Shown piece by piece: positions 14,660 to 52,817 of a DNA stretch of 64,000 nucleotides; the first letter of the stretch is position 1, and each line of letters begins with the position of its first letter. Origin of the DNA: Fomitopsis serialis (Eukaryota > Basidiomycota > Agaricomycetes > Polyporales > Fomitopsidaceae); NCBI RefSeq assembly GCF_022376445.1, contig NW_025955066.1, forward strand, positions 78,529-142,528, in the 5' to 3' direction. Position numbers and translations under genes: made by a program. The notes below the pieces were generated by a model that saw only the letters and a program-made list of their open reading frames with translations, ran no database searches and was not told the DNA's origin.

Positions 14660-17487
14660 TTAGTCAGAGAATGAGCCCAGCCACCTCCAGACGCGCATCT
14701 CTTCTCCCTCGTCAGTCTCCTCAAGAGAAGTGCGTACGTTCGCATTGGCCTCCACTATTCGTTCTACTTTGGTCCAAATTCGCTGACGAGCCGCCACTGA
14801 ATGCATGTCCTGTAGTAGATCGTCGCGCATGTGTAATGAGACCAGGTACCGTTGCGCGGCCCGTGCGGCCGTCGGGTCCCGATTGTGGATGCGCGACTGA
14901 TTCTTTAGTCCTGCGAAGACTGTCTCGACGGCTTGTGTGACGCGATCCGTCTCGACGGCCGTAACGCGCTGTCGCCGCTTGAATATCGAAAGCCCAACCA
15001 CGGCTAGTCCGCCAGCTACAGAGTCCGCGTAGCTCAATGCTAATCAAGCAAGCAGCCAAAAGGCAAACTCACTAATGATATAGCGCTTCCAACCCGTCCA
15101 TGCATCCCCGACTTTTAGCTTGAGCATGCACGCCCAGGTCAGGTGCGGCTGCCGATGCGCAATGTACAGCTCTCCACTGAGGCCTTGTCAGCGCACCTCG
15201 GGGTCCATGGGTAATCACTCACTGTATATTCCTCTCGACTATGAGAGCTTTGTCACGGCTTGGGTCCTTGATCAACTCGTCCAAGACCTCATGAAGCATG
15301 GGAAGCCACTCGGGCTGGGCGTAGACGTCAGCGGAGGGAGAAAGCGGATCCTGTAGATCGTAGAAACTTGCCCGTATACGCTGCTCGACGGCGCTCTCCA
15401 ACGCGTAAACTGGCATACCGAATCGCTGCGCTTCGTCCGCGCCTGCCGCGTCGATGTGAGTCATCTCGCTGCGAAGGACGCAGACTTGACGACCCCGTTC
15501 TTCTGCTAGAACCCTGACCATTTCACCCCGGACTAGACGCATGCGATACGTTCGTTCCGTGTCCTCCACACATTGCGGGGGTAATGCGAAGGAGCCGACT
15601 CCGGGAAGACCGTCTAGTAGTCCAGACATCAAGGCGTATATGTTTTGAAGAGCAGCACTTTGAAAACGGAGACCTTCCGCACGAATGAACGTGGTGGAGG
15701 GGCGCGCCAAAGAGCTGTAAGGCAGGCGCGACAAAGCTTGATGAGGCGCAAGGACGAACCCACGATCACATCTCATCACGGAACGGGTGCACGTTGAATG
15801 TGGGGGGCATGGCGTACAGGTATCGGGGAGGAAAATCGAAAGAGCTGCGTCCAAGATTTCGAGGTGAAACGTATCTGCACTTTGATCTGTGGCCATATTG
15901 TCTCTACAGCTCTTCGTCACAGTGGCGGAGTCAACGCCGCTATGCTCAGCACACAGAGAAGCCAGCCCGGTGCGCCATATGAGACTCTCTGAGGCGGTAT
16001 TGCTGATGCTTCCGGCGTCACAGAATCCAATGCGAATTGACTCTCTCTGATATATATAGAGGAGACAGAGAATCGGGATCATGAATAACGGGATGACGAT
16101 GTTGACAGGCAGGGACGATGATACTGGCGGATGGGTGGAACCGGGTCGACGATCACGGCGAGTAGTAACATGACGGGAGCGCGTAGATTGCGTTGCCCAC
16201 GAGGCACGTATCTGGTCGGAAAGCGGATCGCCGCCAACTACCGTGTTGGGGGCATCGTTACTCTTGCCGCCGTGCGCATATGTGTCGCCAGAGGCACTCC
16301 AACCATTGGCAGAGGTTTGGCGAACGTTGGAAAAGGGCTCTTGAACATGATACGCCCCTCCACAGTCGTGTCCGGCCGCGCGCGAACGGTGTCCAGGCCA
16401 CGTATATGCGTCTGACTACCAATCCCGTTGGTCGTGTGCGATTCACGTAGATGACTTTGTGCGATGCGTGTCCGAGGAGCCTCGTTAGTCAGGCCCGAAT
16501 TCTTGGGACGGTCAGGGGGCGAGTGAGGCACCGGAGACGGTTTGGCACCAGACTGAAAGACATCGCCGTCCATGCTGCCTGAACCCCTGTGACCGTCAAC
16601 GACAGTCTGAAGTCCGCCTACAGCTTGTGGCGAAGCGCCTGTCTTCCTGCGAGGCCCAGGCGAGTACTTGGAATCGCTCTGAAAGACGTTGTCGTTGATC
16701 CAGCCCGAGTTCTTGCGATGACTGTCAGCGACAGCCTGGGGCCCGCTAGGAGTGTGTAGCGAAGCGTTTGTCTTCCTGCGAGCCAAATGATGAGAATCAG
16801 GAGAGCGCTTGGAACCAGTCTGAAATATGTTGTCGTTGATCCAGCCTGAGCCATCAAGGCGTTGAGGGCCACTTGACAAGGTTCCCTGTGGCGTTGAGAG
16901 GCGAGGACCGGAGGCCTCTGGCCCGGGTGAACTCCGAGCACTCCGCTGGAACACGTTCGCGCCGATGGGTCCTGGATACTCTCGGGAGGAGGACGACCGC
17001 GGTGCCGTCGCCGACTGCCTCAGTGCCTCAGTGCCTGCTACATCAAGGTGAAGGGAGCCTCACGCACCTTATTACCAGATTGGGTGGAGGTCTGGCCCAT
17101 ATTGGCGGCTTGGCCATAACCGGCAGGGGAGCGGGCGCCACTCCTCGGAGATTCTTCTCCAACTCGCATTGGGTGACTCAAAACAGGCTGTGTCGGTGGC
17201 TCCTAGACCAAAGAAATGAGTGGCGCGCAATTGTGCACCCAGCCACGCCGTACCTTTGGGGCTTCAAGGTGCGCGAAGCCGTCGAGGCCCGCTGGCTGAT
17301 GGACCCTCGATAACAACACTGCGTCGAACAGTTGCACCAGCTGTAATTTTGAGCAATTGGTAGGATACTTTATCCCATGCTGAAGAAAAACCGATCGAAG
17401 TTGGGCCATCGTAAGCCTGTTGGCGTCGAAGCCAGGTTGCAGATAGGCACCAGTCGCGATGACATCTGCAGACGTCGGTCGTGACAT
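14660..17487 (-). CDS. SRC1: Src1/Heh1/Man1-type inner nuclear membrane protein
   Basis: ATG 17487 (MSRPTSADVIATGAYLQPG). Residues about 15-58 form a HeH/LEM-like fold (YLQPGFDANRLTMAQLRSVF, IKYPTNCSKLQLVQLFDAVL). The nucleoplasmic linker has four copies of an x-N-x-F-Q-x(5)-S-P motif: GANVFQRSARSSPG, NDNIFQTGSKRSP, NDNVFQSDSKYSP, GDVFQSGAKPSP. First membrane span: VNIVIPLFMIPILCLLYIY, then ESIRIGFCDAGS. The lumenal domain contains TPCPPHSTC and a C-x(5)-C pattern. A second hydrophobic stretch (ADSVAGGLAVVGLSIF) leads to the winged-helix-like Man1 C-terminal part ending MRVWRWLGSFSD. At least six exons (for example GTACGG...TCTAG at 17.25 kb). These proteins tether chromatin at the nuclear envelope and take part in nuclear pore quality control with ESCRT. 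Recognition is by domain order and motifs. Confidence 0.8.
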
Positions 17488-40883: not shown

Positions 40884-40887
40884 ACGG
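40884..40887. other. Target-site duplication ACGG (one side)
   Basis: ACGG directly precedes the LTR at 40888 and is repeated directly after the other LTR (51642-51645). Confidence 0.8.
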
Positions 40888-41861
40888 TGTGTAGCTCGGG
40901 AGTGTAGTACCCCCGGGCACGATGTTCGAGGGGCGGGCCAATCCATGGCTTCCAGGATGAAGGGAGGGTGTGTCGAAACGGGGGAATATGCATCTCGGAG
41001 GGGAGTAGTGCCAAAGACGGACCTCGTTGCCAAACCTCTGGCTCGCTGTCCCTATCCTCGGTCCTCCAGGCCTCGTCTACAGCTGTCATCCTGAGTCCTG
41101 ACTCGTTCCGCTGCTCCCTCGCCTCTTCCGTGCTTCGTATCCTCAACCTCGCTTCCAGTCAACGGCTCCGAGTCGTACCGCGTTCAATCTCGTGCTCGTT
41201 CCGTGTTCTCGTTCTCGTTCTGTCTCCTTGTACCCGTTCCGACGTCCTATTCTGAACTCTCGTAGTCGCTCGGCTCGTTGCGGAGTAGGCCAGCTCTGTT
41301 CCTTAGTCGCTAAGCTCGTTCCGCAGGTCGCTGTCCTCGTTTTGCTGGATCCTGTCTTCCTTCCGCTGGTTCGTATTCTTCTTCCGCTGGTTCCTAAGCT
41401 CGTTCCGCGAGTCCTTGGCCTAACCTGTACTCCTTCCGACTTGCCCTGATCTCGTAGTACTGGTGTTGCTCCAACTACGTGGCACTGCTTCCGTCCGAAT
41501 GATTCTCGATGGCCCGACTAGGTCGCTAATGACCAACTCGGGGAGATGCCCCCCAACTCCAGAAAATGTGATAGCAGCGAGACGAGCTGTGCTCGTAGTT
41601 GCCTAGATTCGGAGGGGGGAGAACTGAGCTATGTACATGTCTTCGTGGCACTGTATGCCGCCGAAGCTGACTAATAGTAGGTACTTGCTATATATGGTAA
41701 GTAATGCGAAATCGCACGAAGTCCATCAGGTACAATAGAAATGGGGTATCGGAAGGAATAGCGAAGGTTGTCAATATGCTCGGAGGGAATGGCACTGACC
41801 AGGTAGCTCAAAATAAGGGATATACGTACTGTCCGGGCCTATGTGGGGGGCACTCCCCACA
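40888..41861 (-). repeat. 3' LTR (974 bp)
   Basis: Identical throughout to 50668-51641 in line-by-line comparison. The end at 41842-41861 is an imperfect palindrome (TGTGGGGGGCACTCCCCACA). A direct phrase TTCCGCTGGTTC occurs twice near 41360-41395, part of a run of TCGTTCCG words. Promoter and polyadenylation elements were not assigned. Confidence 0.95.
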
Positions 41862-41871
41862 TCTCCCCCTT
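41862..41871 (-). other. Polypurine tract
   Basis: On the minus strand AAGGGGGAGA lies immediately before the 3' LTR TGTGGGG, the position and composition expected for plus-strand priming. Confidence 0.75.
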
Positions 41872-41926
41872 ACTCGAATTGTGACCGTCCCCGGTCACCC
41901 ACTCCCCGCCGCGACAGCAACACTGC

Positions 41927-44900
41927 CTAACCAAGAGCGATCCATTGCGACATGAATGACGCGAGTCCATTAGCTTTGCCGTCTTCTATATCGTGTCCCC
42001 AAACTCCGCTTACACCGTGCGTGCAACCGTCGTCCTCGTCAAGCCAGCCGCAGTCTCGATTGGTCCTGACAATTGCCCTCTCTGTGTCTGCGCACGGCAG
42101 GTACTCCACGATCCGATGCCCGTTCTCATCCAAGTGCCAGCAGCTGACTAGTTTTTCATCGCAGACCTCTTCTGGGACCCTGAGCTCAGCGCACTCGACC
42201 AGTAGGCACTCTCCGGCGAGTCCGAATCTATGATCGTCCGCGACGGTCGCGTTGCCCGAGGCCATCGTGTCGTCCCTCGCCTGCTTGTGCGCCTGGTACT
42301 GTCGATTGTTCCGGTCGATGTTGTCTGCGGTGTGTCCTCTCGTCGCACCTAAACTGCGCATGAACCCACCGCGCAACTGCTGATCTGCCTCTATAACCGC
42401 CCTCTTCGACTCGTCGCGCGGAAGAAATTCGATGATCCACTGCCCGTGGTCGTCGAGGTGACAACAGCTTACTAGCCCGTCATCGTGCGCTTCGTCCGGG
42501 ATGTTCAGCTCGGCCGACTCAACGAGTAGGCACTCTTGCAGTCCACGTTCTTCCGCTTCGACCACCCTGTCCGGCTGACCACCAGGTCTACCTCCTCTCC
42601 GAGGCTCCCCCATACTCGGATCCGCACTCTGTGGTCGCTCACGTTCCGCCGGACCGTGCGCGTTCGGGTTTCCTGGGCCGCCTGCTTGCCCAGTCTCGCA
42701 CTGCGTCGAGTCCTCGGCGCTCCTTGGGCTATCCGAGACATCTACCCCGAGTCGTACGCACTCGTGTACCAGGTACTGCGCTAGCCATTCGCTCCGCTCG
42801 GTATCCTCGTCAACGGTGCGTGTGTCGTCCTCTGGGATCCATTTGTCTGCCTGCTCAACTTCGCGCAGGGCCGCCTCGGCTTCGGCTCGCGGAATGTATC
42901 CCCATAGCCGCCGCCCGTCCTTTGCAATGTGCCAGCATGCGACGAGGTCGTCCTCGGATGTTTGCTCCAGTGTATCGGTGTCGAACTCGCCGAAGTCTCC
43001 CAGCAGCCAGGCATCCTCAGATACGTCTTGACTCGCAGACTCGGGCTTGTAGCTGTCCGTCCTAGCCTGTGGACCATCCGCGCCGTGTTCTGTTTGTGGA
43101 CCCTGCCACGGTTCAACCGGTAAGTCATTGGTCCTACTGACTTCCGTGCCGCCTGTACCCTCAGGCGCGTAGCTCGGTTGGTCGGTGGTCACGTCCCGCT
43201 GTTCCTCGTGCGTAGAGTTCGCCTGTTCCCCGCCTCCTCGTTTCGTGTCCACCTGATCATCTCCATCGTCGCAGTTCCCCTTCTGCCATGTCGTAAGCTG
43301 CCGGACGTCCTTGTCGTGATCCCCCTTACTCGGCTCGAAGCTCCCGGGACGTTCCCTCTTGCTCCGCATGGGTGCTCCTTGTCCTGTCGTGCGTCGACGC
43401 CCTGGTGAGTTGCCTGGATCCTCCGAGGGGCTCACGAGCTGACAGATCTCCGTGAACCCCACCAGTAGTACCGCGTCGCCTTCGCTACCCTGCTGCGCAT
43501 TCCCACTCGTCCTTTCACGCTCAGAGCGCGTGATGTCCTTTTGCATGCTCGACAACCCTTTCGCTGCGGCTGTCCGCCTCGTCGCCCCCCATGTTTCGCC
43601 ACGGCCGGTGCATTCATCAGCCCACTCCCCCATACTCGGCTTAAAACTCGCGCCCTCGTTTGCCTTGCTACCTTCGCACACGAGCCTATCTGTCCGGTGT
43701 CCTTGCCCTGGTATGTCTGCGGAGTCCGTGGACCGTTCGTATTGCTTGCTGATCTCGACAAACAGCGATTGTAGCACCAATTCGCTACCACCGCCCTCCT
43801 CGCACCCAGCGCGTACGTACTCCCTCCGTTCCAGTGGGCGTGACAAACCTTCCTCCGTACATCGCTCCCACGATATGTCCAGTACGCCCGCGAATGGGTC
43901 GGTTGACTGACTCGTCTCGGCAATCCCGACCTGCCAGACTGCTTCGCCACAGCCCTCTTCCGTGGACGTGTTCGCTGCCTCACGTCTGGTGCGTCCGTGT
44001 TCCGTCCGCGTGCCTGACGATGCCTCGGCTGAAGCCTGCCCTTCCCGCCGCTTCGTCCCCCGCCGAGTCCCACTATCGCCCGCGCATCCGTCCTTCAGCT
44101 CTCTCGTACTTGGCTTCAAGTTCTGGCCCTGGCTCGTCTCACCACACGCATGTGCGTGTCTGCCTCGCCACTGCGGTATGTCCTTCACATCCGCCCAGAG
44201 TTCGGTCGGCTGGCTGATCTCGAGCAGGTTCACTTGTAAAATCGCGACTTCGCGACCACCGTCCAGTGCGTACTCGCCCGTTTCCTCTCGCTCGGCCTGT
44301 CCATCCTGGGTCTGTGCGCACGACGACATTCCCGGTTCGGCTTCCAGCCGCAGCGTGTACCTCGTGTCGATCTCGCCACTCCTCTCCTCAGTCACCTCCC
44401 CCTTACTCGGCTTCGGGATCACGGTCTGCCTCGTCTCGCAGCGCGCAAGTCCACCATACGCTCTCTGACGTACGGGATCCTCCTGCTTACTCTTGAGTCG
44501 CTCGTCGCTTGGGCCCGGGCCTTGCATCTCGGGCTCGGGCTTTCCTCTACTCGGCTCCAAGCTCTCGCCCTGTTTCGTATCGTCGTGTGCACGTACGTCT
44601 TCGAAGTTCGCTTTCAGCCCGTATGGCTGGCTGATCTCGACCAAGTCCTCCTGCGGAACCACCTCGCCTTCGCTATCCTTCGTGTGCTCGCCCGCCTTCC
44701 TACACTCGGTACGTCCGTTCTCTCCTGCCGTGCGTATCGATGTCCTTACTTGAATCTGTTGTCTCGCCACCTCCTGCATCTCGCTAGGCCCAGCGCCTTC
44801 ACCCGCGGGTTTGGACTCCTCATTACTCAGCAGCAGGCTCGCGTCTTGGTCTGTCTCGCCGTGCGCCCGCGCAGGGCCGTCCGCCCCCAATGGTTCCTCA

Positions 44901-47900
44901 CTTCCAGCTTCTCCGGTCCGTCCGTCTTCGCCTCGCATTTGCAGCGATGTTCCTGAGCTAGCGAGCCCCCTCGCACGTAGGATATTGCGATGGTCGATAC
45001 GCTCGCGAGTCATCTCGCCCGTGCTCAGCTCCAAGCTTGCGCCCCCGCACTGCACACTCCCCGCGTAGGCGTTCCCTCTGGTGACGTTCTCCTCTTGTCC
45101 CTGCTCGTGTTCCTTGTAAGGACCATCTCCTCCGTACCTCTCGACTTCGTCTTGCTGCAATGCGACGTCCCTCGATGCAGGTCCTGGCGCGCCGTTGCCT
45201 GTCGCTTCCACGTCCTCATCGACCCAGCCACTAGTCTTCCTCTCGCTCGGTAAGTGCCCCTCGCCGCCATCGGGCTCTCCAACCGCATTGCTCGCGGATC
45301 CTTGCTCGTTGCTCGGCTCCATCCCTTGTATCTCCTTGCATCCACCCTTCGCCTCACGACACTCCTCGTCGGATGCCTCCCGCGGCCCGGGTTCGTCCAG
45401 TACGCAACCGTCCGCCGCCTCTGAGACGACCACTCCCAGCCGTATCTCGTCAGACTCGCTGGGCTCGTTTCCTGGACTACTATCCCTCGCCATCGTGGCC
45501 TCTCCCGTGCGCTCGTTCGGCTCGCTCTCGACGCACACATCCGTCGCAACCTGGGACATATGCGTCTCCTTCTCGCTGGCTTGCTCTTCGACTAGCTGCT
45601 CCTTCCCGAACCTCGCTTTACCGCTTCGCAAGAGCGTTTCAGGTCGCACTTGAGCTTCCGGGGAGCCCGCCGCTTTGCTACTGTTGGTATCCCTGCGGAA
45701 CGGCTCCAGCGCCCCTTTACTCGGTTTGATACGCTTCGAGTTGCTGGGTACGATACGGTGCGAACTCACGCTTCCGTGATCCTGCTTGGTCCACATGTAC
45801 ATAGCTCGGTCGATCCGTCGAACCACCTCGTGGTCTTGTAATGGAGATAGTTCCCGTGTATCACGTCCGACACCGAGTCCCTTGACAGCTCGAACACCGT
45901 CAGTCTGAATCCCCTCCCCCGGCCGTGCCGCGTATTGCCAGACGGTACTCCATACTAGCGAGCAGTCCACCATGGAATTCCTCCGAGCCCCGGGGAACCG
46001 CGAGAAGACACGCCCTGCGTCCATGACCTGAGGGACCACCAAGCCCCTAACGAGCCGTCCAGACCATAGCCCAGGTGCTCGAGCGATCGTTGTGCCGAGT
46101 CCTCGCCTGTTCAGCTCTGCCCCCAACCCTGAACGGTTGTTGGCTTCGTCCCAGACCACGCCGCGCTCGCTCTCAATGGTCTTGAACCTCTTCTCCGAAA
46201 GCCTGGGTACGCGCACCGCGCTGTTCTCGGTACGGAGCATGCTGGCGATCCCGTTCTCGTCCTTGGTCCTTCCCAGTCGCCTCTGCCTGTGTGTCTCGGC
46301 GTTCGCTACCGCGCCTCCGTCTCTGCTTGCAAGAGACTCGCTAACTCCGTTCAGTGCGACTGTCGCGCCCGCCGTCACGCTCGCCATGGTTTCCTCAGCT
46401 CTCGCTCGGTCCTCCTTACTGGTTCTGCCGTGCTCTTCCGTGGAAGCCCCTCTGCACGCTCGTATTCCCTCCGCAGCCTGCTCCCGCGGCTCCAGGTCGT
46501 CGCCTCGTTCCCTCCGGCTGTGGGCACCCTCGAGGCGCGAGCTCCGCGCAATTCGACTGGCAATCTTCCTGCTCGCAACCTCGGTCGTCCTCGGTCCTTG
46601 ATTCTGTACGCGCGGAGTGCTTGGTTCGTCTAGCCACGCGCCCGCCCAATCCGAATCCGCAAGCTCTTGATCCTGAGGTTCGCCCACCGCTTCCTCCGCG
46701 GCGTCGTCGCCACTAGCTGCTGATGGTTTCGCATGTCGCCCCTCCCGTAGCTCCCGTTTGCCGCCTCGCCCTATGAACCATCGTCCCGAAACGCCCCAAT
46801 ACTCCTCTCGCCCTCCTCGTTCCCTCCGACGCGCGGCTTCCTGGGTGTCTGCCTTCGCCTTGCTCGTGCCTGTTGGACTCTTGGCGCACTCCTCTCGGTC
46901 CTCGCCTTCCGTTTGCTCCGGAGGAGGCACTGTGCCTATCGAAGCCTCGCGTCCGGATACCGTCCCCTTCCGCCCGATCGCGATACCCCAGACCGGAGAG
47001 AACAACGGTCCTGCGCGTGTCCGGCTGATCGTAGGGGCGCTCTCGGTGAGTCCATCCTCCAGTGAAACACGTCCGATCGTTGAGGTCCCCTCTGTGTCCT
47101 GCTGCTGAGCCTCCGAGGTATCAATCCGGCTGGAAGTGCTCCATCCCGCCGCTTCCTGAAGCTCGTCTTGTTCCCTCCGGCACACACGACACTCGCAACT
47201 CGCCCGTTCAGTGTCCACCACTAGACTCTCGGTGCCATCCTTCCCGTCCCCTTGTCCCGTTCGTCCCGACGCAAGACCCGGGATCCCCACGATCTTAGAG
47301 CTGGGTGAACTCGAATCCGTGGAGTACTTGACCTGTGAATCACGGTCCCTGTTCGCCTGCTTCACCGATTCCTGCGTCGAAACAAGTCCATGAGCGGCCA
47401 TCCCTTCCGATGGCGGATTTGCAGTTGCTGGGTCCGCCAGCTGGCATCTCGGTGCTTGCGTATCGAGGCCAAGACCTGCTGCGTCGCGTTCGTTCAGTCG
47501 TGCGTGTTCCGGTGACTCACTTGCGCATCCGATTGCCCGTCTTTGAATCATCCGGTCACACTCGGACCACTCCCATTCATCCGTACGTTGCTGCGCGGAG
47601 ACGCTAACACCCTGCGCGCCGCTGGATTGGCCGCAATGAGCGTCTGCTTTGATTGAGGTCAGGCCCCTCCGGTCGTGACGCTCTCGGACGTACTCCTCGC
47701 GTGCAGTTCCCTCCGGGCCCGACCTTACCGTCTGACAAGCATGAGCCGTTACAGAGCTTCTCGCACCTCGACAGGTAGAACCATACACAGACAAGCTACT
47801 AGCATTGAGAAGATGTGGGAGCTGCGGGAATGCACGCGCCAAATCCGCGACTTGAGTGACTAGCGAGGCGCCAGTAGGCTGTGCAACCTGCGGTTCGAGC

Positions 47901-50869
47901 GCTTGAGCGATCGTCTCTCGCCTGAGTCCTCTCTCCACCGACTCTGCCTGCGGCTGCTTGTGGTCCTCGCTCCGGATCTCGTCGTACCGCCTCTCGTCCA
48001 TCGCAAGCATGTTTCCTCGTTGAACCCTCGCCAGGTCAGCATGCTCCCAGTCGCAGTCGCGTCCATCATCGCTCCGTTGTCTGCCCAAAAGGGGCGCGTC
48101 TTCAACTCCGAGCTCGAATGCGCTCGTCGCATGCCCCTGCACCTGCAAGACAGTTCTCGCGGAGGGAGATGAATGTCCGGGGTACGCGTAGTCGGCGGAG
48201 GACATCCCATAGGTGAGCGTGATGTCAGTCGCTCTAATCGTGACCCGTCTGAACCCCTGCGCCTGTCGCTCCTGCTGCTTGCGCGTATCAGCTACTTCCG
48301 CCGTCGCGCCATCCCGTCCTAAGGTATCTTGCCGGATGCCTGACGCGTGCGTCCCCTCTGTCTGCGAGCGTGGTACACCTCGTGGAGTTGATGTGGACTC
48401 TTCGGCTTGCGAGGGAAATGGACCGCGCCTTGTCGTATGGCATCTCCCGGTATGTCTATCCTCTAACGATGTTTTCGCGACTCGCCTGATCCCCCGTGAC
48501 ACCCGTGCAGCTTGCTGATATAGCCTCAGCCAGTCGTTCCCGGCTTTGAAGACTCGTCTCGCCGCCGCCAAGAACTCTCCGACCTCTTGCCGTTCCCCGC
48601 TACACGCGCTAATGGCTCCGCTTGAAGCCTCACCACCCGCTATTCTCTCCTCGTCACGGCCTAGCTCGCCGTCGAAACCCCGGCCTTGCGCAATACCAGT
48701 CGCCGCTAGGTTCTTGCATGCAACTCCCGCCCTCCGTGAGTCTCTCTCTCGTGGCCCTGACTCGTCTTGCTCGCTCGACGCCCCGCCTGTGCCGCATCCA
48801 GGAATCCCTATCCTTCCGTCGATTCCTCGTTCGACATCGCTTACACTCGGGTCCTCGTAGGTCCGCCCTTGGTCGACTAGGTACGCCGCATCCGTTCCCT
48901 CTCGATCTCCTCGTATCGACGCCAGTATCTCGCCGAACGGGGTCCTGTGTCGGTGACCGACCTCTGCAAGACTTGCGTCGCTCCTCGTAGCGATTCTGCC
49001 GGTGAGTCTAACCTCCGTCATCACATCTCGCGCCTGTCCTAATGCTCGGTTCTCTGTTCCAGTTCGCTCCTTGAGCCGCGGGTGATCGTCCTCGACCATC
49101 TCGACTCGTCTCGGCGCCGCCAGCATCTTCCCGACCTTCTCAGCACCGTGGCGGTGCGCCTTGTACTCACGGCGGTCTGTCGTGTGCGTCTCCGCCGTGG
49201 TCTGCGCCTTAGCCCATTGCGTCTGCTCGCTCGCCTCCCGCGCATGCTCCTTTCGCTCGCGCATATCCTTGTATTCGATGCTACCTTCGCTCGTCGCCTC
49301 TGCTCTTTGAATCCCCTGCTCGCGTGCTCGGTTACTCGCTGGACTCCACGGCCTGCCTGTTGAACGTTCACGCCGGCTCTCGTATCCTGACTTCTCGAGC
49401 GTCCTGAGGCTAACGTTCACTCGACAGGCTCCGCCCCCCGACGTCGCTCGCTCGTCTTCCGTCATAACGCACTCGTACAGGCCAAACTGGTGCTGTGACG
49501 TCCGCCGGGCTGATTGCTCATCCCGCCCTCTCCTCGCTGCTGCAACCCTTTCCGACGCGTTGTGCTGGTGCGTCATCGCTTGCTCCGCGTTCGTGGGACT
49601 AACACTTGTGTCCGTAGGTATTGCGTCGCTGATTTGCGCGGCCTTCATCCTAACGAGCCCATTTCCCGCGGGGCCGTCGAATCGCCCGAACGTCCTTGCT
49701 GTGAGCCCCAATATCTCGAGGAAGAGCTCGTCGAGTAAAGGTGGAGTGCTGCCCGACGTGTCCGTAGGTACTCGTATTGTAGAGCTCGCGTCACCCATGT
49801 ACATTCGCCATATATCCATCGCGTGCCCCCCTCGCGAACCGACAGTCACACCTCTGCGCGCGTCTCCGGATCCAAGTGCCTGCTCGCGAATGCTTAGACC
49901 GTTGCCGCTCGTGTTCGTCCCGGGTCTCGTTGTCATGGTGAGGCTTTCATGCGGAGTAGCTCCCTCGTGTTTCCCCGCCGTCAGACTCGCTACTCCAAGC
50001 CAGAAGTCACGAAGTGTGCATGTGGTGCCTCGTTGAAAGTGCGACCGTACGACGACGTGGGCATCTGCTATCCTGGCGCGAGAGGCGTCCTCGATCAAAT
50101 TGCTCCTCGTGTGCACGGCAGCTCGCTCCTGGATCATCGTCTCGAGTCTCTGGCCTTCCGCAGTGACATCCGTCCGCGCAGCGTGTCGACCCTCATGAGC
50201 ACTGTGGTTCCGCGAATCCGTGGATTGAGTGACCGCGCCGCCTGCATGTGCCGTACCTGGCTCGTAGGTCGCAGTCGCGGGTCCCGGTCCAGTAGCTTGC
50301 TCGTAAGTCTGAGGTGCAGATGTTGAGGCTGTGAAGAGCTCGTCGAATGTGTACGTGCTGTCGCCTCCGAGACGACTAGTCGCCGAGTCCGTGATAGACT
50401 CGAGCCGTACCGTTGAGGTCGTTCTCGCGACTACGTCCGCATCGCGCATTGGTGTCGGTTCCGCATGGACTATAATGGTAGACTGGTAATGGAGGGAATG
50501 GACCTCAGCTCGCCTGTACACAGTCCCAGTATAGACTTCGGTAGTGGGTGGGAAATTAATGGAGTGAATTGTGTGCGCTTGCCTGTGCTCTGAGTGCGAT
50601 GACGCGAGGCTGTAGGCGGAGCGGAAGAAGCACGAATAGGGTACCACCCCTCGCGGTGGGCTCCAGTTGTGTAGCTCGGGAGTGTAGTACCCCCGGGCAC
50701 GATGTTCGAGGGGCGGGCCAATCCATGGCTTCCAGGATGAAGGGAGGGTGTGTCGAAACGGGGGAATATGCATCTCGGAGGGGAGTAGTGCCAAAGACGG
50801 ACCTCGTTGCCAAACCTCTGGCTCGCTGTCCCTATCCTCGGTCCTCCAGGCCTCGTCTACAGCTGTCAT
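41927..50869 (-). CDS. Giant retroelement protein, about 2,980 residues
   Basis: One uninterrupted frame. The first ATG is at 50869, inside the 5' LTR (MTAVDEAWRTEDRDSEPEV); the LTR encodes the first 67 residues or so. Very hydrophilic, rich in Glu, Arg, Ser, Gly, Thr, with few aromatic residues except in islands. Islands: SRFPGARRNSMVDCSLVWS with EVVRRIDRAMYMWTKQDH (45.8-46.0 kb); five repeats about 110 residues apart carrying an EISQ-type motif (LVEISQPYGLKANFEDV, LLEISQPTELWADVKDI, IAETSQSTDPFAGVLDI, FVEISKQYERSTDSADI, FTEICQLVSPSEDPGNS; 43.4-44.7 kb); and three C-terminal modules (DLVACWHIAKDGRRLWGYIP, GLVSCCHLDDHGQWIIEFLP, KLVSCWHLDENGHRIVEYLP; 42.1-43.0 kb). No catalytic motif seen. A Gag-like structural or nucleic-acid-binding role is inference from position. 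Chance persistence of such a frame is very unlikely. Confidence 0.75.
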   Translation of the reverse strand: MTAVDEAWRTEDRDSEPEVWQRGPSLALLPSEMHIPPFRHTLPSSWKPWIGPPLEHRARGYYTPELHNWSPPRGVVPYSCFFRSAYSLASSHSEHRQAHTIHSINFPPTTEVYTGTVYRRAEVHSLHYQSTIIVHAEPTPMRDADVVARTTSTVRLESITDSATSRLGGDSTYTFDELFTASTSAPQTYEQATGPGPATATYEPGTAHAGGAVTQSTDSRNHSAHEGRHAARTDVTAEGQRLETMIQERAAVHTRSNLIEDASRARIADAHVVVRSHFQRGTTCTLRDFWLGVASLTAGKHEGATPHESLTMTTRPGTNTSGNGLSIREQALGSGDARRGVTVGSRGGHAMDIWRMYMGDASSTIRVPTDTSGSTPPLLDELFLEILGLTARTFGRFDGPAGNGLVRMKAAQISDAIPTDTSVSPTNAEQAMTHQHNASERVAAARRGRDEQSARRTSQHQFGLYECVMTEDERATSGGGACRVNVSLRTLEKSGYESRRERSTGRPWSPASNRAREQGIQRAEATSEGSIEYKDMRERKEHAREASEQTQWAKAQTTAETHTTDRREYKAHRHGAEKVGKMLAAPRRVEMVEDDHPRLKERTGTENRALGQARDVMTEVRLTGRIATRSDASLAEVGHRHRTPFGEILASIRGDREGTDAAYLVDQGRTYEDPSVSDVERGIDGRIGIPGCGTGGASSEQDESGPRERDSRRAGVACKNLAATGIAQGRGFDGELGRDEERIAGGEASSGAISACSGERQEVGEFLAAARRVFKAGNDWLRLYQQAARVSRGIRRVAKTSLEDRHTGRCHTTRRGPFPSQAEESTSTPRGVPRSQTEGTHASGIRQDTLGRDGATAEVADTRKQQERQAQGFRRVTIRATDITLTYGMSSADYAYPGHSSPSARTVLQVQGHATSAFELGVEDAPLLGRQRSDDGRDCDWEHADLARVQRGNMLAMDERRYDEIRSEDHKQPQAESVERGLRRETIAQALEPQVAQPTGASLVTQVADLARAFPQLPHLLNASSLSVYGSTCRGARSSVTAHACQTVRSGPEGTAREEYVRERHDRRGLTSIKADAHCGQSSGAQGVSVSAQQRTDEWEWSECDRMIQRRAIGCASESPEHARLNERDAAGLGLDTQAPRCQLADPATANPPSEGMAAHGLVSTQESVKQANRDRDSQVKYSTDSSSPSSKIVGIPGLASGRTGQGDGKDGTESLVVDTERASCECRVCRREQDELQEAAGWSTSSRIDTSEAQQQDTEGTSTIGRVSLEDGLTESAPTISRTRAGPLFSPVWGIAIGRKGTVSGREASIGTVPPPEQTEGEDREECAKSPTGTSKAKADTQEAARRRERGGREEYWGVSGRWFIGRGGKRELREGRHAKPSAASGDDAAEEAVGEPQDQELADSDWAGAWLDEPSTPRVQNQGPRTTEVASRKIASRIARSSRLEGAHSRRERGDDLEPREQAAEGIRACRGASTEEHGRTSKEDRARAEETMASVTAGATVALNGVSESLASRDGGAVANAETHRQRRLGRTKDENGIASMLRTENSAVRVPRLSEKRFKTIESERGVVWDEANNRSGLGAELNRRGLGTTIARAPGLWSGRLVRGLVVPQVMDAGRVFSRFPGARRNSMVDCSLVWSTVWQYAARPGEGIQTDGVRAVKGLGVGRDTRELSPLQDHEVVRRIDRAMYMWTKQDHGSVSSHRIVPSNSKRIKPSKGALEPFRRDTNSSKAAGSPEAQVRPETLLRSGKARFGKEQLVEEQASEKETHMSQVATDVCVESEPNERTGEATMARDSSPGNEPSESDEIRLGVVVSEAADGCVLDEPGPREASDEECREAKGGCKEIQGMEPSNEQGSASNAVGEPDGGEGHLPSERKTSGWVDEDVEATGNGAPGPASRDVALQQDEVERYGGDGPYKEHEQGQEENVTRGNAYAGSVQCGGASLELSTGEMTRERIDHRNILRARGLASSGTSLQMRGEDGRTGEAGSEEPLGADGPARAHGETDQDASLLLSNEESKPAGEGAGPSEMQEVARQQIQVRTSIRTAGENGRTECRKAGEHTKDSEGEVVPQEDLVEISQPYGLKANFEDVRAHDDTKQGESLEPSRGKPEPEMQGPGPSDERLKSKQEDPVRQRAYGGLARCETRQTVIPKPSKGEVTEERSGEIDTRYTLRLEAEPGMSSCAQTQDGQAEREETGEYALDGGREVAILQVNLLEISQPTELWADVKDIPQWRGRHAHACGETSQGQNLKPSTRELKDGCAGDSGTRRGTKRREGQASAEASSGTRTEHGRTRREAANTSTEEGCGEAVWQVGIAETSQSTDPFAGVLDISWERCTEEGLSRPLERREYVRAGCEEGGGSELVLQSLFVEISKQYERSTDSADIPGQGHRTDRLVCEGSKANEGASFKPSMGEWADECTGRGETWGATRRTAAAKGLSSMQKDITRSERERTSGNAQQGSEGDAVLLVGFTEICQLVSPSEDPGNSPGRRRTTGQGAPMRSKRERPGSFEPSKGDHDKDVRQLTTWQKGNCDDGDDQVDTKRGGGEQANSTHEEQRDVTTDQPSYAPEGTGGTEVSRTNDLPVEPWQGPQTEHGADGPQARTDSYKPESASQDVSEDAWLLGDFGEFDTDTLEQTSEDDLVACWHIAKDGRRLWGYIPRAEAEAALREVEQADKWIPEDDTRTVDEDTERSEWLAQYLVHECVRLGVDVSDSPRSAEDSTQCETGQAGGPGNPNAHGPAERERPQSADPSMGEPRRGGRPGGQPDRVVEAEERGLQECLLVESAELNIPDEAHDDGLVSCCHLDDHGQWIIEFLPRDESKRAVIEADQQLRGGFMRSLGATRGHTADNIDRNNRQYQAHKQARDDTMASGNATVADDHRFGLAGECLLVECAELRVPEEVCDEKLVSCWHLDENGHRIVEYLPCADTERAIVRTNRDCGWLDEDDGCTHGVSGVWGHDIEDGKANGLASFMSQWIALG
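50646..50665 (-). other. Primer-binding-site-like sequence
   Basis: On the minus strand TGGAGCCCACCGCGAGGGGT begins two bases inside the 5' LTR. TGG is the complement of a tRNA CCA end, as in typical primer sites. The tRNA species was not identified. Confidence 0.55.
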
Positions 50870-51641
50870 CCTGAGTCCTGACTCGTTCCGCTGCTCCCTC
50901 GCCTCTTCCGTGCTTCGTATCCTCAACCTCGCTTCCAGTCAACGGCTCCGAGTCGTACCGCGTTCAATCTCGTGCTCGTTCCGTGTTCTCGTTCTCGTTC
51001 TGTCTCCTTGTACCCGTTCCGACGTCCTATTCTGAACTCTCGTAGTCGCTCGGCTCGTTGCGGAGTAGGCCAGCTCTGTTCCTTAGTCGCTAAGCTCGTT
51101 CCGCAGGTCGCTGTCCTCGTTTTGCTGGATCCTGTCTTCCTTCCGCTGGTTCGTATTCTTCTTCCGCTGGTTCCTAAGCTCGTTCCGCGAGTCCTTGGCC
51201 TAACCTGTACTCCTTCCGACTTGCCCTGATCTCGTAGTACTGGTGTTGCTCCAACTACGTGGCACTGCTTCCGTCCGAATGATTCTCGATGGCCCGACTA
51301 GGTCGCTAATGACCAACTCGGGGAGATGCCCCCCAACTCCAGAAAATGTGATAGCAGCGAGACGAGCTGTGCTCGTAGTTGCCTAGATTCGGAGGGGGGA
51401 GAACTGAGCTATGTACATGTCTTCGTGGCACTGTATGCCGCCGAAGCTGACTAATAGTAGGTACTTGCTATATATGGTAAGTAATGCGAAATCGCACGAA
51501 GTCCATCAGGTACAATAGAAATGGGGTATCGGAAGGAATAGCGAAGGTTGTCAATATGCTCGGAGGGAATGGCACTGACCAGGTAGCTCAAAATAAGGGA
51601 TATACGTACTGTCCGGGCCTATGTGGGGGGCACTCCCCACA
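50668..51641 (-). repeat. 5' LTR (974 bp)
   Basis: Identical to 40888-41861. On the minus strand it begins TGTGGGGAGTG at 51641 and contains the start codon of the giant frame at 50869. Confidence 0.95.
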
Positions 51642-51645
51642 ACGG
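51642..51645. other. Target-site duplication ACGG (other side)
   Basis: Matches 40884-40887. Removing the element and one ACGG restores a continuous sequence through the insertion site. Confidence 0.8.
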
Positions 51646-52817
51646 TACGTGGTGCTCACCCAGCACGAGGCGCGGGTTCGCGTCGAGGAGTCGAACACGA
51701 GGAGCCACTCGCGTCGGCGGGGTGGAAGAGGCGCGAGATGTCCGCGGCGCGCCAACTCGGGGAGTACATTGAGCGGCGGTGGAGATGGTGCAGGAGGTAG
51801 GGATGTGGCGGGTGCGAGAGGAGGGGTGCGGCGGGTGCGAGAGGAGGGTCGCGTGCTACAGAGATGGGTCCGCGCGATCGTGATGGTCATTGCCATACTG
51901 GCTCCTCTTTCTCGTCCTCCCGCGCAAACATCAGCTCCGAGGCCGGCATCCTCACTGAGCATAGTCATGACAGGAGGAGGAGGAGGGATCCGAGTGAAAT
52001 CGCGCCTGAGTGGCTCAGGCGTAGAACACTCAGGCACCGAACTGAACGAGACCAGATATGCTATCTGTGAGACAGGTACTCTAGAGTACAGGGAAGGGGA
52101 AAAGAAGAGAAAGGGGGGAAAGCGGTGGTTCGAAGGCAAGAGAGGTTGTTCGTTTTGCTTCCCCGCGCGTTACCGGTTGGAGGAGGAGTAGACAAATACA
52201 TTGGACACAAGTATACTGTACGTGCAGACCGATAGCGAGTCAAGCAATGCATTGTAACACACTGGCACGTACCTGCGCAAACTTCGTGACCGCACATTCT
52301 CTGTCGCCGTCTGTCCTCCTAATGTCATTTCCGAGTCGCCACTAGCGCAAACGGGCGCTTACCTTGCATTCAAATTGTCATTATCGCCTGGCCGACACCT
52401 AACACAGAAAATGAGTAATTCACGAGCCAACTTAGCCAGAGCACGAAGGAACGAAAGACGCGCCGTGCAGCCTGAGGGTGACGCGAAAGCATCAAGCGGT
52501 AATCGTACTCATTGTCCGACCAAACGGGCAGCCGTCCTCTTTGATTGTACCCTTGTTCTCTCGCATGCCATTACCCAGACAAACACGGAATCCAGTATAG
52601 ACCTCCCTCCTGGGCAACCAAAGACGTCGTGCATGTGTCGGCGGTGCTTACCGGAGCCCGCGCGACGAAATAAGCATACATGCTTCATCGTTGGACGTGC
52701 ACAGCCTGTTGGCTATTCTCTTCCCATCCTGGACAATCAAAGGCGTCGGACACGAGCCGTCTCAGCTGCCCTACAAAAGTGAGTCGTCGTCTCTGTTCAT
52801 ACCCTCAACTTTCAGCG
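51646..52817. other. Flank between LTR element and WD40 copy 2
   Basis: No firm gene. 51720-51860 is G-rich on plus (GGTGCGAGAGGAGGG words) and gives long frames on both strands. 52590-52815 is related to the sequence upstream of WD40 copy 1 (AACCAAAGACGTCGTGCATG is shared), so the WD40 duplication includes about 230 bp of 5' flank. Confidence 0.45.

Follow-up and report, generated by a model that had tools for sequence, protein, structure and literature searches.

Non-autonomous LTR retrotransposons usually have a non-coding interior or retain Gag, and a LARD in the usual sense is an element whose interior is non-coding. Several described systems come close to the element considered here, which lies in a 64-kb stretch of DNA (the window) from the wood-decay fungus Fomitopsis serialis (Basidiomycota, Polyporales; contig C9, 78,529-142,528) and consists of two LTRs, an ACGG target duplication, and an 8,806-bp interior holding one giant open frame. 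Under the rule given in the portion of the Inpactor paper available to us, an LTR element with no domain and at least 2 kb is classed as a LARD (PMC6022998), and the window element, being long, free of gag and pol domains, and presumably mobilized in trans, falls under that rule. Definitions of TRIM and TR-GAG elements are given in the same paper. It differs from a LARD in that its interior appears to be a single stop-free, conserved gene whose C-terminal domain is under selection. The wheat element RLG_Sabrina_SA, which has a Gag-protease frame and is called “semi-autonomous” in the accessible text of its description (PMC9744471), and the TR-GAG elements are similar in that a non-autonomous LTR element still contributes a protein, but the protein of the window element is not recognizably Gag or protease.

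The TelKA2n family of bdelloid rotifers, presented in the available sections of its source as a non-autonomous LTR family that is missing most of gag-pol and keeps an env-like gene (PMC5408684), is likewise poor in gag-pol and retains another gene, whereas the frame of the window element fills the whole interior and has no Pfam match to a known ORF3-type domain. In the mini-Ty1 donor/helper system, as outlined in the part of the paper at hand, cis sequences near the LTRs suffice, proteins are supplied in trans, and up to 5 kb of interior is dispensable (PMC4974528). The same working principle, cis signals combined with trans-supplied proteins, is proposed here from sequence, although the window element is natural and its interior, far from being dispensable, is kept open as a frame. 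A survey of fungal LTR elements mentions no such element in its accessible portion (PMC3248453), and no description of the window family was found in the literature searched, in which coverage of subscription papers is thin.

A first-pass annotation of this DNA had reported the hallmarks of an LTR retrotransposon, and the identical LTRs, the ACGG duplication, and the polypurine tract were all recovered. The two LTRs have TG..CA ends and match at 974 of 974 positions, in agreement with the recent insertion that had been claimed, and the sense orientation of the element is the minus strand. The features of the element outside the frame are as follows.

5′ LTR: 50668..51641, minus strand; 974 bp, sense start TGTGGGGAGTGCCCCCCACATAGG, sense end CTACACA
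3′ LTR: 40888..41861, minus strand; same 974-bp sequence as the 5′ LTR
Target-site duplication ACGG, NCGN type: 40884..40887, no strand
Target-site duplication ACGG, second copy: 51642..51645, no strand
Primer-site-position sequence ACTGGAGCCCACCGCGAGG: 50649..50667, minus strand; exact also in two Gag-coding gypsy families
Polypurine tract GAGTAAGGGGGAGA: 41862..41875, minus strand; adjoins the 3′ LTR

The primer-site-like sequence noted earlier is upheld as 19 conserved nucleotides at the right place, but not as far as a primer is concerned: a pattern search found no tRNA gene that matches it, and there is no self-primer of 9 nt or longer. Rfam and tRNA searches of the window gave no matches. 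A stretch of 7-8 nt, CTCGCGG, at about sense positions 400-455 of the LTR in all 11 copies compared, is complementary to part of the primer-site sequence and appears too short to sustain a claim of self-priming. Just beyond the element, at 51799-51844, are tandem repeats (2 x 23 bp).

The intact frame of approximately 2,980 residues described by the first-pass annotation is confirmed. Residues are numbered here from the preceding stop.

Giant open frame: 41927..50926, minus strand; 2,999 codons from TTG plus stop, or 2,980 from the ATG at 50867-50869
Middle region, residues 93-2600: 43139..50662, minus strand; stop-free, codon positions about equally variable, mostly disordered by charge-hydropathy

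The frame spans the interior except for about 50 bp before the polypurine tract and, at its other end, takes in the primer-site-position sequence and part of the 5′ LTR. The first in-frame ATG is located within this LTR and candidate start codons vary between copies, so that the starts given above are candidates only. The remaining five interior frames contain 52-103 stops each, and frames shuffled with dinucleotides preserved average 86 stops, with a minimum of 65 among 180 of them, which excludes chance openness. The public gene model at this position (B0H18DRAFT_958497, 2,257 aa) exits the frame about 30 residues before the model's own end; it lacks the conserved C-terminal domain (window 41927-43021), the part under clear protein selection.

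The predicted protein is rich in R, G, E, A, and S, and in three copies the charge-hydropathy boundary assigns 77-81% of 101-residue windows to the disordered class. Both features would be expected if all of the roughly 2,980 residues function through composition, as a disordered polyampholyte (a scaffold or condensate) whose sequence is free to drift. However, order-promoting content is 0.20-0.21 in the frame and 0.17-0.21 in the other two sense frames; since those frames have the low content as well, it follows from base composition. Together with the small excess of constraint at codon position 2 described below, this makes function of the whole protein by composition an improbable account.

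Several searches address the statement that the frame has no protease, reverse transcriptase (RT), RNase H, or integrase motif. At E≤1, no Pfam family matched the window frame, the frames of other copies gave only sub-threshold DUF matches, and comparison of the whole frame with PHROGs and PDB sequences returned nothing. As a control, a copy of F3, one of the two Gag-coding gypsy families that have the primer-site-position sequence, gave RNase H at 3e-16 and RVT_1 weakly at 0.018. With tblastn, 15 gag, RT, and integrase frames of the same genome reached a best E of 0.66 against 11 copies of the window family, whereas 11 of 12 queries from elsewhere matched the F3 control copy at E 8e-09 or better with 25-28% identity (the one exception, query L018, gave E 1.1). 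By hhalign, the profile of the giant frame has a probability of 0.3% to F3 Gag and 0.2% to F3 RT-RNaseH. None of the three methods detected Gag or knuckle similarity in the frame. The statement thus holds for the window element and for 10 further two-LTR copies, and the RT or integrase homology that would have spoken against it was looked for within the frame and not found. Judged by the components of an autonomous Ty3/gypsy element (gag, protease, RT, RNase H, and integrase), the window element falls short. A genome scan with RVT_1 missed the F3 copy on C44 and, being incomplete, is not used as proof of absence.

An autonomous element whose polymerase has diverged beyond recognition could in principle escape such searches, whose reach is limited, and the middle of the frame yields no usable structure that would speak to the matter. 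The same-genome gypsy frames nevertheless find the F3 control at 25-28% identity and do not find the 11 copies, and the near-neutral drift of residues 93-2600 is hard to square with an enzyme, so that a hidden polymerase seems extremely improbable. What remains is a retroelement without detectable polymerase that keeps a gene of about 3,000 codons lying below the cut-off for every protein family searched. Relatives of the protein were found in F. serialis only, by searches that require shared 5-residue words and impose length limits and could therefore miss fast-drifting relatives.

The 66-Mb assembly (806 contigs) contains at least 76 stretches matching the LTR and 16 exact junctions between polypurine tract and LTR, all at LTRs of the window family, some of which may represent one insertion present twice in the assembly. 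Eleven copies were compared, namely the window element and the 10 further two-LTR elements, and both ends were resolved by script in nine of them (not in C25 or C44). All nine have perfect 4-bp target duplications of the NCGN type (eight insertions) and measure 10.2-13.3 kb. Apart from gaps, the two LTRs of each copy are separated by 0-5 substitutions, with none in six of the nine, and thus several diverged lineages have inserted recently. Copies C307 and C179 are a single insertion in two contigs, with flanks that align throughout, which lowers the count of insertions to no more than 10 for the 11 copies and no more than eight for the nine. A second duplicate pair may be C161 and C368, which match without a difference over 950 + 1,398 bp.

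Long frames recur in the family, as had been anticipated: C146 has 3,171 and C465 has 2,849 codons between stops, compared with 3,003 in the window. A three-frame path through the copies meets 0-1 stops in 10 of 11 and four in C706. Frameshifts number one in the window and C465 (in both at the end of the frame), two in C146, 3-7 in C179, C25, C124, C44, and C256, 12 in C401, 16 in C307, and 15 in C706. Only in the window element and C465 does the frame reach the conserved stop without a break; C146 departs from the conserved frame near its end. Between the two versions of the same insertion, 33 single bases are absent from C307 and six from C179, alongside 38 substitutions, and 1-bp gaps are the sole difference within the LTR pair of each of C401, C307, C179, C146, and C465. 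Both observations indicate that part of the frameshifts in other copies are probably assembly errors. The C307/C179 pair also reveals that the assembly includes redundant, lower-quality contigs. Random breakage of the frame in other copies, which had been named as grounds for doubting selection, is therefore found in part: interruptions exist, but they are mostly indels, with few stops, and some are likely artifacts. Broken copies also have LTR pairs with 0-5 substitutions, and an intact frame in cis may perhaps be unnecessary.

The absence of stops was evaluated among the three long frames (window, C146, and C465) at DNA-aligned, in-register codons. Random placement of the observed substitutions predicts 37.6, 29.8, and 40.7 stops for the respective pairs, with minima of 24, 19, and 27 over 60 simulations per pair; none was observed, a deficit for which the choice of open copies is an implausible cause. 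In the same pairs, missense changes occur at 0.85, 0.84, and 0.82 of the neutral level. Over 12 pairs the value is 0.78-0.95 in 11 and 1.38 in one, where the remaining nine pairs are fragments in which zero stops arise by construction. Protein-aligned estimates for the giant frame (0.38-0.86 over 19 pairs) overstate constraint and are superseded by these DNA-aligned values. As a like-for-like yardstick, protein-aligned values for F2 and F3 Gag (F2 being the second of the two gypsy families) are 0-0.13 in 17 of 20 within-family pairs; the exceptions (0.36-0.43) pair L065, whose frame stops early, with L049, L055, and L062.

Codon-position analysis of the window and nine other copies, at columns with at least four sequences, distinguishes two parts of the frame. 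At codon positions 1/2/3, the fractions of columns that vary are 0.545/0.574/0.593 for residues 93-1050, 0.564/0.606/0.598 for residues 1051-1800, and 0.586/0.599/0.631 for residues 1801-2600. They change to 0.544/0.473/0.790 for residues 2640-2998 and to 0.383/0.272/0.765 for residues 2640-2720. The contrast of position 2 with position 3 between middle and C-terminus has a chi-square p of 1e-5, which assumes independent columns, while the copies are linked by descent and recombination. Gaps divisible by three are modestly enriched within the frame, at 43 of 121 compared with 4 of 38 outside for window-C146, and at 19 of 64 compared with 11 of 67 outside for window-C465.

About 2,500 codons thus drift almost freely although stops are excluded. 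The giant frame has the marks of a genuine gene from which stops appear to have been removed by selection along its length, and constraint at the protein level clearly seems to be confined to the last ~360 residues. The first-pass annotation had inferred selection for the protein and had suggested a search for low dN/dS; the inference survives for the C-terminal ~360 residues with their codon-position bias, and not for the ~2,500 middle codons, where missense is near neutral while stops are absent. The presence of little excess constraint at position 2 of residues 93-2600 also tells against function of the full-length protein by composition. A giant intact frame is in itself no evidence of a giant functional protein. 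Strong constraint against nonsense combined with almost none against missense, the C-terminus excepted, separates the question of whether the frame is translated from that of whether the protein is needed, a distinction that can seldom be tested from sequence alone.

The same data bear on the most deflationary account, in which the element is an ordinary LARD-type derivative without a role, open by chance or through recent origin. Indels break the frame in several copies, four stops are added to them in C706, and F. serialis is the only species in which a homolog was found, all of which would suit such a relic. However, the lack of any stop in three diverged pairs, for each of which 30-41 are predicted, the conservation of the C-terminal domain and terminus, and the likely origin of part of the indels in assembly errors argue otherwise, and we give this account very little credence.

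The constrained region contains small repeats.

C-terminal region, residues 2640-3003: 41930..43021, minus strand; protein-level purifying selection
C-terminal repeat 1, WLLGDFGEFD..LVACWHIAKDGRRLWGYIPRAEAEAALREVEQ: 42794..43021, minus strand; most conserved block
C-terminal repeat 2: 42323..42550, minus strand
C-terminal repeat 3: 41999..42226, minus strand; beta-beta-alpha in an AlphaFold2 model, low confidence (pLDDT 49.5)
Terminus FMSQWIALG-stop: 41927..41956, minus strand; conserved

The three repeats in the window are of about 76 residues each. The sequence QWIALG-stop occurs shortly before the polypurine tract in all 11 copies, and the longer form LA(S/T)FMSQWIALG-stop in 10 of them. 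AlphaFold2 models residues ~600-1060 at a pLDDT of 35.5, below that of the repeats. The repeats show a recurrent, sub-threshold similarity to DUF6391 (at best 26.5 bits against a cut-off of 33, E 8e-06), with no match in the window's own copy, and a genome scan for DUF6391 gave six matches, four at places of the window family and two elsewhere, none above the cut-off. The likeness may serve as a lead only. It was noted for the C-terminal repeats at positions 1194-2282 of locus L023, on the minus strand.

Some RNA viruses have defective-interfering RNAs that retain an open frame, and by analogy translation in cis could be what matters here: the protein itself would hardly count, and the open frame would spare the RNA from nonsense-mediated decay or from loss before packaging. 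Zero stops against 30-41 expected with missense near neutral, the conserved stop shortly before the polypurine tract in 11 of 11 copies, and the T-poor sense strand (14% in five copies) all suit this proposal. So do the compensated frameshifts, since the two fully uninterrupted frames are out of register in 319 of 5,879 aligned columns. Translation for its own sake would give no reason to expect a conserved terminus or a bias among codon positions over the final ~360 residues, and the depletion of splice-branch motifs, which is clear relative to dinucleotide shuffles, becomes marginal once codons are held (0.067, 0.097, and 0.023 against codon-order shuffles). We consider cis-translation alone unlikely, if the most credible of the alternatives.

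The first-pass annotation had proposed an autonomous partner sharing the LTR ends. Across the genome, the 19-nt primer-site-position sequence occurs in 36 exact copies, and the pattern read backwards in none. Thirty loci were cut out, 13 of which belong to the window family (assigned by LTR match), 10 to F2, and seven to F3 (the latter two assigned by sequence around the site). A Gag frame follows the primer site at 10 of 12 F2 and F3 loci examined, being absent in L042 and L040, and the F2 and F3 Gag frames are 57-61% identical. A CCHC motif is visible in F3 Gag, which Pfam matches to a knuckle only weakly (E 0.053). RT and RNase H frames are present in the F3 copy at C44, and a query with the RNase H frame of this copy has a same-orientation downstream match at nine of 17 F2/F3 loci and at C693, but at none of the 13 window-family loci between the LTRs. 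The RT of this copy (L072, C44:1500-9500) has an FADDI motif, where YxDD-type motifs are usual, and scores 15 bits to RVT_1. No protease or integrase was located in F2 or F3, and among the matches listed no rve lies inside the F2 copies C290, C23, and C693; F2 would presumably be fully autonomous all the same.

Both families share the primer-site-position sequence with the window family, and for F2, the family whose LTR start was read, the likeness extends further. The F2 LTR at C290 starts with TGTGGGGCAGGCCCACATGG, compared with TGTGGGGAGTGCCCCCCACATAGG in the window family, a common TGTGGGG..CCCACAT arrangement. At up to three mismatches, the F2 LTR start occurs at 44 places, 27 of them preceded by CGN, as at the CG-centered target flanks of the window family, and 17 by AGA, a triplet that precedes the 3′ LTR in the window family too and is taken as the end of the polypurine tract. 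The 30 places with 0-1 mismatch comprise 18 with CGN and 12 with AGA, and any other flank in this set would have been reportable; at the remaining 14, the search could have overlooked a flank that departs strongly from CG. The one F2 copy with both flanks read (C290) has ACGC and GCGC, an imperfect duplication. The two families differ from the window family in encoding Gag and RT/RNase H and in having other leaders and LTR bodies (the F2 LTR is 1,575 bp); F2 has neither the longer polypurine-tract sequence of the window family nor its leader after the primer site. One F2 copy (329553-343057) measures 13.5 kb and window-family lengths are similar, which fits an argument from packaging length without proving it.

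Cis signals of the window family are therefore shared with a Gag- and RT-coding family of the same genome, as expected of a helper-dependent satellite, and F2 is the likely helper, judging from its LTR start, primer site, and CG flanks, with F3 possibly serving as well. The proposed partner thus has a candidate in F2, with the qualification that integrase was not located there. Copies have swapped LTRs and interiors with one another: LTR identity shows no correlation with identity over the first 1.4 kb of the interior (r=0.03 for 66 pairs from 12 loci), with C75 and C401 at 0.676 in the LTR and 0.989 in the interior, and the window and C161 at 0.978 and 0.550, respectively. This shuffling would be best accounted for by template switching of co-packaged RNAs.

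The explanation that we favor, with confidence somewhat above an even chance, is that the element is a helper-dependent Ty3/gypsy retro-satellite whose frame is translated end to end for the sake of a C-terminal domain located behind a disordered, sequence-tolerant region. Most likely, its RNA would be packaged, reverse transcribed, and integrated by F2 proteins, and possibly by those of F3. The giant frame would be translated throughout, and the functional portion would be the C-terminal repeat domain, whose probable binding target is the RNA of the element or a helper protein (Gag or the particle). The ~2,500 upstream residues could then be a disordered spacer of which only length and openness are demanded, one that would hold the RNA at about the length of the helper genome without premature stops.

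A further reading, to which we assign slightly less than an even chance, is that the gene is selected for openness and not for sequence, a “translatable stuffer” in which some 2,500 codons behave like non-coding DNA save for forbidden stops, with a small selected domain behind them and an RNA that would have to be translated throughout. If so, a stuffer gene would give a helper-dependent retroelement both its genome length and the survival of its RNA, so far in one fungus. Satellite and presumed helper reside in one genome as recent copies, which opens packaging, template switching, and any requirement for translation in cis to direct study.

Two further features were seen elsewhere. The RT-bearing frames on C134, C146, C98, C788, and C119 are unusually long, with 1,989-2,291 codons in one frame. 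In the window itself, a minus-strand frame at 15219-16082 has a Man1-Src1p C-terminal domain (E 1e-23), and we take its product to be of the nuclear-envelope protein type.
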